DNA of 48,852 nucleotides, from positions 1-48,852 of the forward strand of contig JAQXFO010000018.1 in assembly GCA_029005135.1 (NCBI GenBank). The letters are read 5' to 3'. The notes beneath the pieces were generated by a model. That model did not search any database and was not told the origin of the DNA. It saw only the letters and a list, made by a program, of their open reading frames with translations. Origin of the DNA: Lachnospiraceae bacterium. Its GTDB lineage: Bacteria; Bacillota; Clostridia; Lachnospirales; Lachnospiraceae. Positions 1-46,267 of the stretch are shown here, piece by piece (positions within the stretch are counted from its first letter, which is position 1; every line of letters starts with the position of its first letter). Position numbers and translations under genes: made by a program.

Positions 1-74
1 GACTGATTTATAGAATCTTAACCGCTTACGAAACAGAGAAAGGAGTCCCTCGAGGAGACTTCTTTTTTTGTGCC
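1..74 (+). repeat. Copy of the small-peptide unit 3' tail (truncated by window edge)
   Basis: Positions 1-60 are identical to 774-833, which is the 3' untranslated tail and terminator of the 19-residue peptide unit at 690-749. The match continues with small changes to about position 74. The window therefore appears to start inside the tail of another copy, whose coding part would lie to the left. That upstream part is not visible. Confidence 0.85.
40..69 (+). terminator. Intrinsic terminator of truncated peptide unit
   Basis: AGGAGTC at 41-47 pairs with GACTTCT at 57-63 with one G-U pair, followed by a T run to 69. It is the same hairpin as the terminator at 813-842. Confidence 0.8.
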
Positions 75-528: not shown

Positions 529-621
529 ACCGCTGCCTCCTGTTTCCCCGGCGCTTTATTATATCTATTTTGTATTATTTGTTCATTATAATACATATTT
601 CACATATTTCTTTGTTCGCTG

Positions 622-689
622 TATTATCATATCAGAAACAAGGAAACAACTTCCTATCATACCAATACCAAATGAAAGGAGATCCTGTT
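622..689 (+). promoter_or_regulatory. Conserved 5' region of peptide unit A (-10 like TATTAT plus leader)
   Basis: Positions 622-689 align without gaps to 2567-2634 with only 5 mismatches in 68 bases; further upstream the two loci share no clear alignment. The block starts with TATTAT, a plausible -10 element, and contains a small GGAA/TTCC inverted repeat. It ends with GAAAGGAG seven bases before the ATG. The abrupt start of similarity at TATTAT suggests promoter plus transcribed leader. Confidence 0.6.
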
Positions 690-749
690 ATGAAGATCAA
701 ATCATTCCTGAAAGACTATTACGAATCCTTCTACGGCGTTCGCTTCTGA
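690..749 (+). CDS. 19-residue peptide, copy A
   Basis: The frame encodes MKIKSFLKDYYESFYGVRF and stops with TGA. A good Shine-Dalgarno (AAAGGAG) precedes it and an intrinsic terminator closes the unit at 813-842. A second copy at 2635-2694 differs at six bases: three silent, one stop-codon swap (TGA/TAA) and two conservative replacements (K4R, S12A). That pattern fits selection on the peptide. The sequence is basic at the N-terminus and aromatic in the second half (YY, FY, RF), with no signal peptide or cysteine. It does not match any pheromone, toxin or leader peptide I know. The unit stands alone, pointing away from the genes on either side. Confidence 0.65.
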   Translation: MKIKSFLKDYYESFYGVRF

Positions 750-773
750 TTCACGACAGACGAACAGACGGCT

Positions 774-847
774 GACTGATTTATAGAATCTTAACCGCTT
801 ACGAAACAGAGAAAGGAGTCCCTCGAGGAGACTCCTTTTTTTGTGCC
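774..847 (+). repeat. Repeat of window-start tail sequence
   Basis: This is the 3' tail of peptide unit A. Positions 774-833 match 1-60 exactly and similarity continues through the T run. It shows that the cassette to the left of the window and unit A are recent duplicates, while the tail of unit B (2695-2790) is unrelated in sequence. Confidence 0.85.
813..842 (+). terminator. Intrinsic terminator of peptide unit A
   Basis: AGGAGTC (814-820) pairs with GACTCCT (830-836) around CCTCGAGGA, followed by seven T residues. It lies 64 bases after the peptide stop. Confidence 0.85.
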
Positions 848-957
848 TCCGCCTTCCTTCGGGCATTGTCATTGTCTCTCAGAAGCTGTCCAAAAGAACG
901 CCCCCAAAAGTGCCAATCACGCCAAATTCACGCTTCCGGCTCATTTTCGCCTTTTCT

Positions 958-2256
958 CTACGGCTGGCAGCGCTGACAGGGCTGATACCCCTGTGCGATC
1001 ACTTCCTCCCGCGTCCCGGTAAAATACGCCTTATTCTTCTCCTTCATTTCCTTCACACTGTCGCAAGCGGGCCTGTGAAAACGGTGCGTGTTCGTATTCA
1101 GGACGTACGACAGCTCTGACTCGCTGCCACTGTCACCGGCCGGAACGGCAGTGCCGCCAGCCTCCGACGGTTCCGTCTGTGAGGCCGGGGTATTTTCCTT
1201 TTCCAGGGCGATCGTCAGTTCATGCCCGTCGGAGGTGATGGTGATATCACCGTTTGTGTCTGTTCGGAAAACAGCCGCCCCCGCCGCTTCCAGGCGCTTC
1301 ACCACGCTGTTGTCCGGCAGGCCGTAGCTATTGCCGCTGCCCACGGAAATCACCGCGATTGACGGATCCACCGCCTGAAGGAAGGCCTCCGTCGTCCCGG
1401 TTTGGCTGCCGTGATGGGCAGTCTTGAGCACATCGGCCCGGAGATCCTCACCGCGAAGCAGCATCGCCTCCTCCGACGGCTGCTCCGCATCTCCGGTAAA
1501 GAGAAAGGACGTCTCCCCGAAGGTCACCTTCAGCACGATCGAGGTATCGTTGACGCTGCTGCCCTCGTTAACCCCCAGGATAGCGACGGAAGCCGCTCCC
1601 AGTGCATATTGATCGCCGACCGAAGGCACTGTGATGCCGCCGCCGTTTTGCTCCGCATAGGTTTTAAAATGCTGAAAGACCTCCCCCTCATAATCCGTCA
1701 CGGGGCACAGCGTCAGATCCGCCGTCGTGTAACTGAGCGCACCGGCGAGGCCGCCGATATGATCTTCATGGGCATGACTGGCCACAAGCAGGGACAGCTT
1801 CGGGACCTGAAGATCCTTCAGCACCGTATAGATCAGGCTCGAAGCTTCCCGGCCGCCGCCATCGATCAGCATATAGTGGCCATCGCAGCAGACAAGCGCG
1901 GCATCCGCCTGCCCCACGTCAAGAAAACGCACCCACAGGGAGGAACCCTCCGGCAGCGCTTCCGCCGTCGAATCCGGTTCCGTGGTATCTGCCGGCTCAA
2001 TGGTCGGGTTATCTGCCGGTTCCGATTCAGACGCCGTCTCCGATTCCGATTCAGACGCCGTCTCCGGTTCCGATGCCATCGCCGAAATCGCTGCTTCGGC
2101 CGAGATCGCCGGCTCCTTTTCCGCCGACGACACCTCACCGCGGCACCCGGACAGCATAAGACAGGCCGTGAAGACGACCGTCAGCAGGGCCGCCGCCGGC
2201 CGCCGGGCCTTCCCGGTTCGCTCTTTTCTGTTTTTTTGACAATATCTGATCGGCAT
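958..2256 (-). CDS. ComEC-like metallo-beta-lactamase-fold lipoprotein
   Basis: A secreted, membrane-anchored MBL-fold hydrolase of about 432 residues. The start at 2256 is chosen over an in-frame ATG at 2388, because a promoter-like pair (2317-2345) and a minus-strand hairpin lie between them. It opens with a basic region and a lipobox LSGC (Cys38), then a Ser/Glu-rich repetitive linker (ASESESETASESEP) encoded by imperfect DNA repeats near 2000-2090. The MBL domain carries SHAHEDH for metal binding, plus FTGDAE and AHHGS, as in the hydrolase domain of ComEC/Rec2. The C-terminus (about the last 50 residues, from YVLNTNTHRFHRP to CQRCQP) has a conserved C...CxxC pattern typical of small zinc-ribbon-like or Ada-like tails on Firmicutes nucleases. 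Substrate is unknown; extracellular nuclease or phosphodiesterase activity is plausible. Confidence 0.9.
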   Translation of the reverse strand: MPIRYCQKNRKERTGKARRPAAALLTVVFTACLMLSGCRGEVSSAEKEPAISAEAAISAMASEPETASESESETASESEPADNPTIEPADTTEPDSTAEALPEGSSLWVRFLDVGQADAALVCCDGHYMLIDGGGREASSLIYTVLKDLQVPKLSLLVASHAHEDHIGGLAGALSYTTADLTLCPVTDYEGEVFQHFKTYAEQNGGGITVPSVGDQYALGAASVAILGVNEGSSVNDTSIVLKVTFGETSFLFTGDAEQPSEEAMLLRGEDLRADVLKTAHHGSQTGTTEAFLQAVDPSIAVISVGSGNSYGLPDNSVVKRLEAAGAAVFRTDTNGDITITSDGHELTIALEKENTPASQTEPSEAGGTAVPAGDSGSESELSYVLNTNTHRFHRPACDSVKEMKEKNKAYFTGTREEVIAQGYQPCQRCQP

Positions 2257-2316
2257 ATCTCTGACTGTAACTCTGCTTTTTATCTTGAATACTTTGTTGA
2301 CCTGAAAACAAAAATC

Positions 2317-2345
2317 ATTATAGTGCCTGTCAACACGGATTTCCA
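2317..2345 (-). promoter_or_regulatory. Candidate promoter of the MBL lipoprotein
   Basis: On the minus strand TGGAAA (2345-2340) and TATAAT (2322-2317) are 17 bases apart. Transcription would start near 2310, about 55 bases before the chosen ATG at 2256. Confidence 0.55.
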
Positions 2346-2378
2346 GCTTCCGCTCCCGGGGAAAACGACAAAGAAAAC

Positions 2379-2406
2379 GGGAGCGCATCGTTCAGAATGC
2401 GCTCCC
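2379..2406 (-). terminator. GC-rich hairpin, weak minus-strand terminator
   Basis: GGGAGCGCAT (2379-2388) and ATGCGCTCCC (2397-2406) form a perfect 10 bp stem. On the minus strand it is followed by GTTTTCTTTG. It lies upstream of the MBL promoter and may insulate that gene from leftward transcripts. Confidence 0.5.
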
Positions 2407-2455
2407 GCTCACCGTGTCAGACCCGGCTGCCTGATCTCCTGATGCGATTCCCGTA

Positions 2456-2481
2456 CAAAAAGGGACTGCTGCGGCAGTCCC
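2456..2481 (-). terminator. Minus-strand intrinsic terminator
   Basis: GGGACTGC/GCAGTCCC form an 8 bp stem (2462-2481), with five T residues following on the minus strand (2461-2457). It probably stops leftward transcription from the YjiH-like gene at 2805-4142 before it reaches the MBL gene. Confidence 0.7.
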
Positions 2482-2566
2482 TTCCCGGCAAGATGCGTAT
2501 CTTATTATATCTTTTTTATATCATAATAAACTTCTTATAGTTTTTTACTTTTCCCTTCATTCGCGT

Positions 2567-2634
2567 TATTATCATATCAGAAACAAGGAAACAACTTCCA
2601 TTCATACCCATATCAAATGAAAGGAGAGCCTGTT
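2567..2634 (+). promoter_or_regulatory. Conserved 5' region of peptide unit B
   Basis: Gapless counterpart of 622-689, with TATTAT at 2567-2572. In this copy TTTACT lies 17 bases upstream and could serve as a -35. The Shine-Dalgarno GAAAGGAG is conserved. Confidence 0.6.
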
Positions 2635-2694
2635 ATGAAGATCAGATCATTCCTGAAAGATTATTACGAAGCCTTCTATGGTGTTCGCTTCTAA
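2635..2694 (+). CDS. 19-residue peptide, copy B
   Basis: The frame encodes MKIRSFLKDYYEAFYGVRF and stops with TAA. It aligns gaplessly with copy A (690-749) together with 68 bases of leader, 11 mismatches over 128 bases in total. Similarity ends at the stop codon, so the 3' tail and terminator (2758-2784) are different in sequence but equivalent in form. Independent conservation of leader, reading frame, length and a downstream terminator supports a real gene. Function is unknown; a signalling peptide, small membrane-binding peptide or leader function are all possible. Confidence 0.65.
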   Translation: MKIRSFLKDYYEAFYGVRF

Positions 2695-2757: not shown

Positions 2758-2784
2758 AAGAAGCCTGCAGCGGCTTCTTTTTTT
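2758..2784 (+). terminator. Intrinsic terminator of peptide unit B
   Basis: AAGAAGCC (2758-2765) pairs with GGCTTCTT (2772-2779), followed by T residues to 2784. It is 64 bases after the peptide stop, the same distance as in unit A. Confidence 0.85.
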
Positions 2785-2804: not shown

Positions 2805-4142
2805 TCAGAATATCAGCTGCGCAATGGGGCAGACGATCAGGAAGGAAATGATCGTGCGCTCGAGGTAGATCACGAACATCTCAAAGAGGTTGACCGGCAG
2901 TCTGGAAGCCAGGATGAGGCCGCCGACCTCCGACAGGTAGAGCACCTGCGTGACGGAGACGACCGCCACGATAAAGCGGGTCATGGCACTGACACCGGCG
3001 CCGGCGATGAGGATCGACGGTGTGAACATATCCACAAAGCCGACAATGACGGTAGACGCCGCCTCCGCCGCTTCCGGCACCCCGAGGAGGGACAGGAAGG
3101 GCTTGAAGGGCAGGCCGAGCCAGGTGAAGACCGGCGTTTTGTTGGCGATCAGAAGGGCGATCGTGCCGATGCACATGACGGTAGGCAGCACACCGAACCA
3201 CATTTTGGCGGAATTCAGTACCCCGCTTTTCAGGAATTCGCCCACGCCTTTGTGTTCGGAGACACGCTTCATCGCCAGGGCCATGCCGTATGCACGGCTG
3301 TTCTTGTATCCCGCCGGGATCGTTTCCGCCATCTTCCGTCCTTCCTTCAGATAGGTATCCGGCTTACGGCTGAGCGGCCATATCCGCGGACAGATCAGGG
3401 CGCAGACAATACCCACCAGGACGATCACCAGATAGTAGATGCCGAACATTTCCACAAGTCCCACCTGGTCGAGCACGACAAGGCTGAAGGTGATGGAGAC
3501 CGCCGAAAATGTCGTCGCGATGACGGAGGCCTCCCGGGCGGAATAAAAACCGCCCTCATACTGGTTGCAGGTTAACATAACACCAAGGGTGCCGTCACCG
3601 ATCCAGGAAGTGATGCAGTCGACCGCCGCGCGGCCCGGCACCGTGAACACCGGGCGCATGATCTTCGTCAGCAGCGCTCCGATGTATTCCAGCAGACCGA
3701 AGTCCAGAAGGAGCGGCAGCAGCAGCCCCGCCATGACGAAGATAATGACCAGCGTACACAGAAGGTCATTGAGAATAAAACCGCCCTGATCACCGTCGGC
3801 TATCACCGCAAGCCACCCTGTCTCCGGTCCAAGATAGGCAATCCAGCAAAACAGGCAGCCCAGCACGCGCACCACGGTCCAGAAGGGCGTCGTCGAAAAG
3901 GTCTCCTTCAAAAGGCGGCTGTTCTCGATGAAGGCCGGCCCGAAAAGGGCGAAAACCGACATCACAGCCGAGACCGTCAGAATCAGCGTACACAGAAGAG
4001 GCAGGTAAGCACCGACCGCACCGGCAATGATATCGGCGATGATTTTGACGATCACCGTCCAGCTGCCGTCGTATTTCACCGGAATCATAAAGAGAAGGAC
4101 ACCGGCCAGGGAGGGAATGACAAAGAGACATTTGTTTTTCAT
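2805..4142 (-). CDS. YjiH-like multi-pass membrane protein (nucleoside-recognition 'Gate' type)
   Basis: A 445-residue protein with about ten hydrophobic helices. It resembles the YjiH family, whose members contain nucleoside-recognition/Gate domains related to the spore maturation proteins SpmA and SpmB. Supporting features are the long helical repeats with GDGTLGVMLTCNQYEGGFYSAREASVIATTFSAVS in the centre (key block GxYSxREASVIAT) and FVDMFTPSILIAGAGVS near the C-terminus. The transported solute is unknown for this family. The gene stands alone on the minus strand, with a terminator at 2456-2481 downstream and thioredoxin divergently transcribed upstream. Confidence 0.8.
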   Translation of the reverse strand: MKNKCLFVIPSLAGVLLFMIPVKYDGSWTVIVKIIADIIAGAVGAYLPLLCTLILTVSAVMSVFALFGPAFIENSRLLKETFSTTPFWTVVRVLGCLFCWIAYLGPETGWLAVIADGDQGGFILNDLLCTLVIIFVMAGLLLPLLLDFGLLEYIGALLTKIMRPVFTVPGRAAVDCITSWIGDGTLGVMLTCNQYEGGFYSAREASVIATTFSAVSITFSLVVLDQVGLVEMFGIYYLVIVLVGIVCALICPRIWPLSRKPDTYLKEGRKMAETIPAGYKNSRAYGMALAMKRVSEHKGVGEFLKSGVLNSAKMWFGVLPTVMCIGTIALLIANKTPVFTWLGLPFKPFLSLLGVPEAAEAASTVIVGFVDMFTPSILIAGAGVSAMTRFIVAVVSVTQVLYLSEVGGLILASRLPVNLFEMFVIYLERTIISFLIVCPIAQLIF

Positions 4143-26585: not shown

Positions 26586-26602
26586 ACGCCTTCATTATGC
26601 AG

Positions 26603-26702
26603 CAGCGGGATGCGGAAACGACACCGCAAGGGGCCTGCCCTTTTCGTCCGTCTGTCAACTCCCTGTACAGACAGCACTTAACGCGTCGGATCCTACTCTG
26701 CT
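26603..26702 (-). promoter_or_regulatory. Tetrahydrofolate (THF) riboswitch
   Basis: Read on the minus strand, the conserved blocks occur in the class order: AGAGTAGG, GCGTTAAGTG, ACAGGGAGTTG, GGACGAAAAGGGC, CCTTGCGGTGTCG and CCGCATCCCGCT. The ends pair GCAG/CTGC as P1. It lies between hicB and folT and should lower folT expression when reduced folates are abundant. Confidence 0.92.
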
Positions 26703-46129: not shown

Positions 46130-46267
46130 GATGCTCTTCTTTCATCCAGACTATACTGTCGGTATCGGAATTCACTGTCGTGTCACCGATTCGGCCCGAA
46201 GGCTCGCGGACTATACCGCCGGTACGGAATTACACCCGTCCCCGAAGAACCCTGTTAAGTTGCATCA
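46130..46267 (-). promoter_or_regulatory. FMN riboswitch (RFN element)
   Basis: On the minus strand the RFN landmarks appear in order: TTCGGGGACGGGTG, AATTCCGTACCGGCGGTATAG (first part), a P4 arm, GGTGACACGACAGTGAATTCCGATACCGACAGTATAGTC (in pieces) and GGATGAAAGAAGA. GATGC and GCATC at the ends extend stem P1. FMN binding should favour the terminator at 46068-46097 and reduce ribU expression. Confidence 0.95.

Follow-up and report, generated by a model that had tools for sequence, protein, structure and literature searches.

What could two short and nearly identical units, each holding a frame of only 19 codons, be making in a Lachnospiraceae bacterium, and what could control them? The units lie near the start of the window, by which we mean the whole stretch of DNA analysed (48,852 nt; assembly GCA_029005135.1, contig JAQXFO010000018.1, positions 1–48,852, forward strand). 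The answer we think probable is that a translated micropeptide, activated by a LysR-type regulator, works intracellularly as an amphipathic helix that engages a partner, where we infer the binding of the regulator, the activation, the inducer, the partner, and the place of action.

The Two Units in the Window

The preliminary description of this DNA had aligned the two units without gaps, 622–749 against 2567–2694, with 11 mismatches in 128 bases, and had given each its own Shine-Dalgarno sequence and its own terminator. All of this was borne out, with the hairpins and T runs lying 62–63 bases past the stops (Table 1) and a consensus scan listing both hairpins on the minus strand only. The frames are identical at 54 of 60 positions, the six differences being three synonymous changes, a TGA/TAA stop swap, K4R, and S13A, again as first read. 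The flanks diverge more, since only 62 of 98 aligned columns past the stop and 47 of 85 ahead of the -10 are identical. Chance is excluded as the origin of the pair because, in a search of their own genome, the copies match each other at E 1.3e-48. What the earlier reading had overlooked was a repeat at the contig start, a LysR-type box upstream of each unit, and the regulator itself. Because of this repeat, the contig may start inside a third unit cut by the assembly.

An attenuator leader peptide was rejected: the next long frames (958–2388 and 2805–4142) are on the minus strand, and a hairpin ends each unit. As regards the antisense RNA of a type I toxin, minus-strand promoter-like sites occur in AT-rich stretches. 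The frame between the units (958–2388, minus strand) encodes, in our own reading, a metallo-beta-lactamase-like protein with a relative just upstream of the Kineothrix regulator (L086, L209), and elsewhere in the window, two riboswitches exceed the Rfam gathering scores, FMN (46130–46253) and THF (26601–26702), both on the minus strand.

Table 1. Features of the two units and of the contig start (positions in the window).
Feature	Position	Strand	Basis
Putative LysR-type box, unit 1, ATATCTATTTTGTAT (ATAT-N7-GTAT)	561–575	+	aligns in position with the boxes of the 14 other promoters
Promoter, unit 1: -35 TTCACA, 17 bases, -10 TATTAT	599–627	+	10/12 consensus bases; conserved block
Inferred start region and 5' leader, unit 1; Shine-Dalgarno AAAGGAG 675–681	628–689	+	63/68 bases (622–689) as in unit 2
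Frame 1, MKIKSFLKDYYESFYGVRF	690–749	+	19-codon frame; selection analysis
Terminator hairpin and T run, unit 1	812–842	+	fold; consensus scan hairpin (minus strand)
Putative LysR-type box, unit 2, ATATCTTTTTTATAT (ATAT-N7-ATAT)	2507–2521	+	promoter alignment
Promoter, unit 2: -35 TTTACT, 17 bases, -10 TATTAT	2544–2572	+	9/12 consensus bases
Inferred start region and 5' leader, unit 2; Shine-Dalgarno AAAGGAG 2620–2626	2573–2634	+	copy comparison
Frame 2, MKIRSFLKDYYEAFYGVRF	2635–2694	+	19-codon frame; selection analysis
Terminator hairpin and T run, unit 2	2758–2784	+	fold; consensus scan hairpin (minus strand)
Repeat of the 3' end of unit 1	1–67	+	99% identical to 774–840

A Family of Micropeptides

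Within the genus, a search with the 19-residue peptide found only the window's two copies, and DNA searches of the genus set (42 genomes including its own) and of phage records found no match outside the window. In the wider family (397 genomes), querying with the peptide and then with a five-row profile uncovered true relatives in G196, G357, G165, and G405, with four copies in G405. These searches gave many weak matches (31 genomes at E ≤ 3 and 183 at E ≤ 1), from which only the retrieved loci with short frames were inspected, several of them being Shine-Dalgarno coincidences ahead of other genes. A fixed-length pattern run on named genomes returned 33 stretches and added members in Kineothrix sp. 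MSJ-39, in two Lachnospiraceae with MKKIMEKVN[KE]FFDEYYKSFAEKF, and in Lachnospiraceae Tb.RUG.147, along with copies in tandem, two in Flintibacter muris and three in an uncultured bacterium; stretches among the 33 lacking the Shine-Dalgarno sequence and the core were judged by eye to be chance. L067, a pattern match lacking a box, was dropped on the same ground. The viral matches to the pattern (10 stretches) were mostly pieces of larger frames, L011 and L013 being short, and a relatedness check of 73 pattern stretches confirmed none of them. Distant members with weaker sites came from inside and outside the genus: G005 (E 4.3e-10; MKFFKEIASFLKVYGDQFENHMYIGK), G307 (8.1e-6), G027 (1.6e-5; MKLISRIEQYLEAMYKECAVKTDMKF, adjoining a regulator), and G001 (0.004; MKKLIAAVKAFCLTYGDMFTDHMASGRKG).

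Peptides of this build thus far comprise 17–29 residues around a core that is roughly FL-x-x-YY-x-x-F, and they are present in Lachnospiraceae other than this one and in Flintibacter, some in multiple or tandem copies. It is this core that is common to them; the RF ending to which attention had been drawn is not a family trait, as other members end in HLG, AK, EKF, or HREAK. Relatives of at least 20 residues (the window's 19 being too short to scan) matched no convincing family in NCBIfam, Pfam, or PHROGs, the best matches being NCBIfam SHP2/SHP3 (E 1.6), Pfam DUF6900 (E 0.096), and a PHROGs entry (E 0.13). A profile search of the PDB gave no useful match, and tblastn of one relative against plasmids gave none.

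Some members are followed by a second short frame. In Lachnospiraceae UBA1753 (L074, L075, L076), this frame, M[LI]KLIKVIEAALVGSHESFR, is complete in two copies and interrupted by an N gap in the third, and in G005 and G307 (L175/L190, L171), the second frames have a VRKLxKRGL stretch in common.

A Conserved Promoter Block

The 15 promoters first aligned, those of both window units included, form a near-gapless block of about 90 bases made up of an ATA[CT]-N7-[GA]TAT box, a TATTTCACA-like -35 region, and a -10. The box begins 111–168 bases ahead of the called start codon in these 15 loci and is of the ATAT variant in the window. An interrupted dyad near -65 with a promoter downstream of it gives the block the look of a putative LysR-type activated promoter, an architecture that we regard as strongly supported. 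In the part of the source consulted, CatM is reported to prefer ATAC-pyrimidine-N5-purine-GTAT, a preference that the box fits in most members (PMC6628147).

A promoter-only model, built from sequence with the frame excluded, was run on the 397 genomes, and at E ≤ 1e-8, it found 28 places in 21 genomes. Because the model was trained on loci found via the peptide (10 of the 28, among them the window's units at 555–642, E 1.8e-11, and 2500–2587, E 1.3e-10), counts are also given without the training loci or genomes. A family peptide lies downstream of 12 of the 18 new sites (G047, G210, G176, G120, G077, G397, G082, G234, G255, G127, G273, and G330), MLKKLEKFFEEYYAEFLHREAK being an example. The scan with the peptide pattern, run on 16 of the 19 new sites with E ≤ 2.2e-8, matched at 12; as a control, the pattern, which was devised after the peptides had been seen, matched 586 of 59,815 stretches. 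The six new sites without a peptide comprise two ahead of DUF1275-like genes (G413, G108) and four with short transcripts, namely G357:C4 (with a 10-codon frame), G218:C2 (ahead of purC), G345, and the window genome's third site, G000:C26:15781–15865, which has a 13-codon frame of another kind. Here and below, names of neighbouring or target genes that lack profile-library support are our own readings of translations.

A second model (R2), run on 28 genomes with related regulators, gave peptides and short transcripts as its strong sites and then a sharp drop; most of these strong sites had also served to train it. The weaker sites (E 1e-8 to 1e-5, and those of the second model) are mostly ahead of other genes, which by their translations include DUF1275, pyrG, a leuC-like gene, an acetyltransferase, NADH:flavin oxidoreductase, and purA, or have no recognisable gene after them; they were not counted as members. 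Both Faecalicatena contorta genomes (L220, L221) have a secondary site ahead of an NADH:flavin oxidoreductase-like gene.

Peptide or Small RNA?

Is the frame, then, what matters in the transcript? One explanation, which we consider unlikely, is that the transcript is a regulator-controlled small RNA or a dual-function RNA in which the frame is secondary. It would account for the leader of the window units being conserved like the frame, for the four promoter sites that lead to short transcripts without the peptide, and for whole-unit folds with z-scores of -2.0 and -2.2, much of which comes from the terminator. Against it, a synonymous excess over expectation was found in five of six pairs of related frames, the same residues are kept despite divergent DNA, tandem frames each have a Shine-Dalgarno sequence of their own (L089, L092), and Rfam gave no match at threshold on the units, with one sub-threshold match between them.

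The six pairs of frames, picked by hand with only one UBA1753 and one L092 comparison among the possible pairs, gave 24 synonymous and 19 non-synonymous differences, where 18.9% synonymous would be expected (P 7.8e-8). The first three pairs gave 11 and 3 (P 1.4e-6), the window pair 3 and 2, and the G307–G005 pair 8 and 12; a contrary result was the UBA1753 pair, with 0 and 2. We regard the frame as strongly supported, and the earlier proposal of a peptide missing from annotation holds, with a frame under purifying selection and, for relatives of at least 20 residues, no match to a family. It had also been proposed that homologues which keep the leader and lose the frame would speak for an RNA: such a loss was seen, though at the smaller part of the promoter sites (G345, G357:C4, G218:C2, and G000:C26).

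In both window units, the Shine-Dalgarno sequence is predicted to pair with the leader; reading a few other leaders of the family by eye showed no such pairing. Many transcripts of the family would start with a purine-rich TCAxCAAAGGAA-like stretch (by eye), possibly a 5' stabilising, Shine-Dalgarno-like element.

A LysR-Type Regulator Accompanies the Peptide

A gene for a LysR-type regulator adjoins the peptide in 7 of the 14 distinct first loci (20 stretches before repeats were merged). Of the 12 new peptide loci, 10 have it adjoining, and the other two (G120, G330) have it on another contig. Linked sites are divergent from the regulator in 13 of 14 cases, including the peptide-less G345 and G357:C4; among the named loci, Kineothrix and Flintibacter have the regulator and the peptide on one strand, and L092 is convergent. 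With thresholds of E ≤ 1e-80 for the regulator (22 genomes) and E ≤ 1e-8 for the site (21 genomes), the 397 genomes divide into 18 with both, 4 with the regulator only, 3 with the site only, and 372 with neither (Fisher 1.5e-24); without the six training genomes, the numbers are 13, 4, 2, and 372 (Fisher 3.7e-19). The four genomes with a regulator and no strong site are G169 (a weak partial site), G239 (where the contig end cuts the site), G398 (with a stop in the frame), and G414.

In NCBIfam, the regulator matches CidR, AlsR, CynR, and GltC best, with 159.7 bits for CidR as against its cut-off of 415, and the regulators of L017 and of the window genome both score below the curated NCBIfam cut-offs for CidR, AlsR, and GltC. 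CatM and BenM are among its best solved relatives. The likeness to CidR, AlsR, GltC, CatM, and BenM lies in the ATAC-N7-GTAT box and the often divergent target, whereas here the scores are far under the cut-offs and the main strong target is a micropeptide rather than an enzyme operon.

In the window genome, the candidate regulator (G000:C26:21242–22117), assigned by tree and box type, is on another contig than the units and is 41% identical to the reference. A quick tree with open forks places it in a clade of 11 with the peptide-linked regulators of Flintibacter, the uncultured bacterium, and G027, and with those of G005 and G001, whose genomes carry unlinked peptides; no peptide was seen adjoining the five other regulators. 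The boxes of this clade are, by eye, mostly of the ATAT type. Nor was a peptide seen beside the regulators of G345, G169, and G414, or beside those of G020, G029, and G041, which are nested in the peptide-linked clade.

How and Where the Peptide Might Act

The reading of a regulator controlling a micropeptide is based on the co-occurrence, on the promoter block in 15 loci, on the peptide at 12 of the 18 new sites, and on the selection on the frame. Counting against it are the 6 peptide-less sites among those 18, the regulators without a peptide, the 41% identity of the window genome's regulator, the frame pairs with 0 and 2 and with 8 and 12 changes, and the window's own peptides, which are not significantly amphipathic (p 0.16 and 0.18). 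In the family, the helical moment is above the shuffled mean in all 31 distinct peptides and at p < 0.05 in 13.

On this basis, each unit would be transcribed as a single gene for a micropeptide that is translated, has no leader, and is able to form an amphipathic helix with the aromatic FL-x-x-YY-x-x-F core. The box, about 65 bp ahead of the start, would be bound by a LysR-type relative of AlsR, CidR, and GltC, which would activate the promoter when its metabolite is present. The peptide would then work intracellularly as a small regulatory protein, its helix docking on a partner enzyme, on a transporter, or at the membrane. A tiny protein acting on a metabolic enzyme has a parallel, by size and description rather than by sequence, in the archaeal sP26 of Methanosarcina mazei, 23 residues long and reported, in the part of the paper available, to interact with glutamine synthetase (PMC11957540).

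Could the peptide instead be exported and work extracellularly, whether as a signal or as an amphipathic peptide active on membranes? Phenol-soluble modulins are short leaderless amphipathic helices, and the peptides here resemble them in being amphipathic, leaderless, small, and often multicopy. They differ in that no modulin-type exporter was seen to recur beside the genes and that the regulator is of another family. Of 30 neighbourhoods, the regulator is present in 21 and the next family, of MATE type in our own reading, in 5, so that no exporter recurs widely. Together with a net charge that ranges from -3 to +4, this makes export quite improbable. A signal role, which had been raised as a possibility, is not favoured because no gene other than the regulator recurs in more than 5 of the 30 neighbourhoods; membrane activity, raised with it, may hold, the peptides being amphipathic. 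A type I toxin in the form of a membrane-spanning peptide was rejected, as charged residues occur throughout and there is no long hydrophobic run.

We know of no LysR-type regulator that binds a peptide. The remaining idea, that the peptide serves its own LysR-type regulator as a feedback ligand, in the way that RopB responds to leaderless communication peptides, has in its favour the divergent regulator–peptide pairs, which resemble the RopB loci, where, in the part of the source consulted, a regulator gene is likewise accompanied by a divergent tiny leaderless peptide gene (PMC10518010). It is, though, a very improbable one: copies of the peptide are also unlinked and multicopy (G405, G120, G330, G357, and the window), and G345 retains the regulator and the promoter, not the peptide. 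Membership of the RopB system itself was rejected, since that system, as described there, has hydrophobic peptides of 8–9 residues and an Rgg-type receptor, whereas the peptides here have 17–29 residues and are charged and the neighbour is of LysR type (PMC10518010).

What the regulator might sense is only suggested. Because weak boxes precede genes read as purA, gdhA, and amtB in a genome of the window's genus (G020; model matches at E 4.9e-4, 7.6e-4, and 2.5e-3), a nitrogen regulator is suggested; the weak-box loci in this genus are L138–L140, L178, L179, L194, and L195, and a related regulator there adjoins what reads as glnB.

Significance

To our knowledge, no LysR-type regulator has been described with a micropeptide as its main strong target, which, if true here, would be unusual. 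A literature search, in which subscription journals were thinly covered, found no description of the peptide family or of a LysR-controlled micropeptide, and the part consulted of a paper on short Blautia producta proteins does not mention LysR (PMC10715070). Genes of this size escape annotation and rarely get a regulator assigned. Tentatively, and with considerable doubt, the pair might be seen as a dedicated regulator–micropeptide module of anaerobic Firmicutes, in which a sensor of nitrogen or central metabolism would have as its main output, in place of an enzyme, an amphipathic peptide of about 20 residues that tunes an assimilation enzyme or transporter post-translationally. With the regulator, box, promoter model, and peptide core that the comparison yields, the family can be annotated across the Lachnospiraceae and tested genetically.
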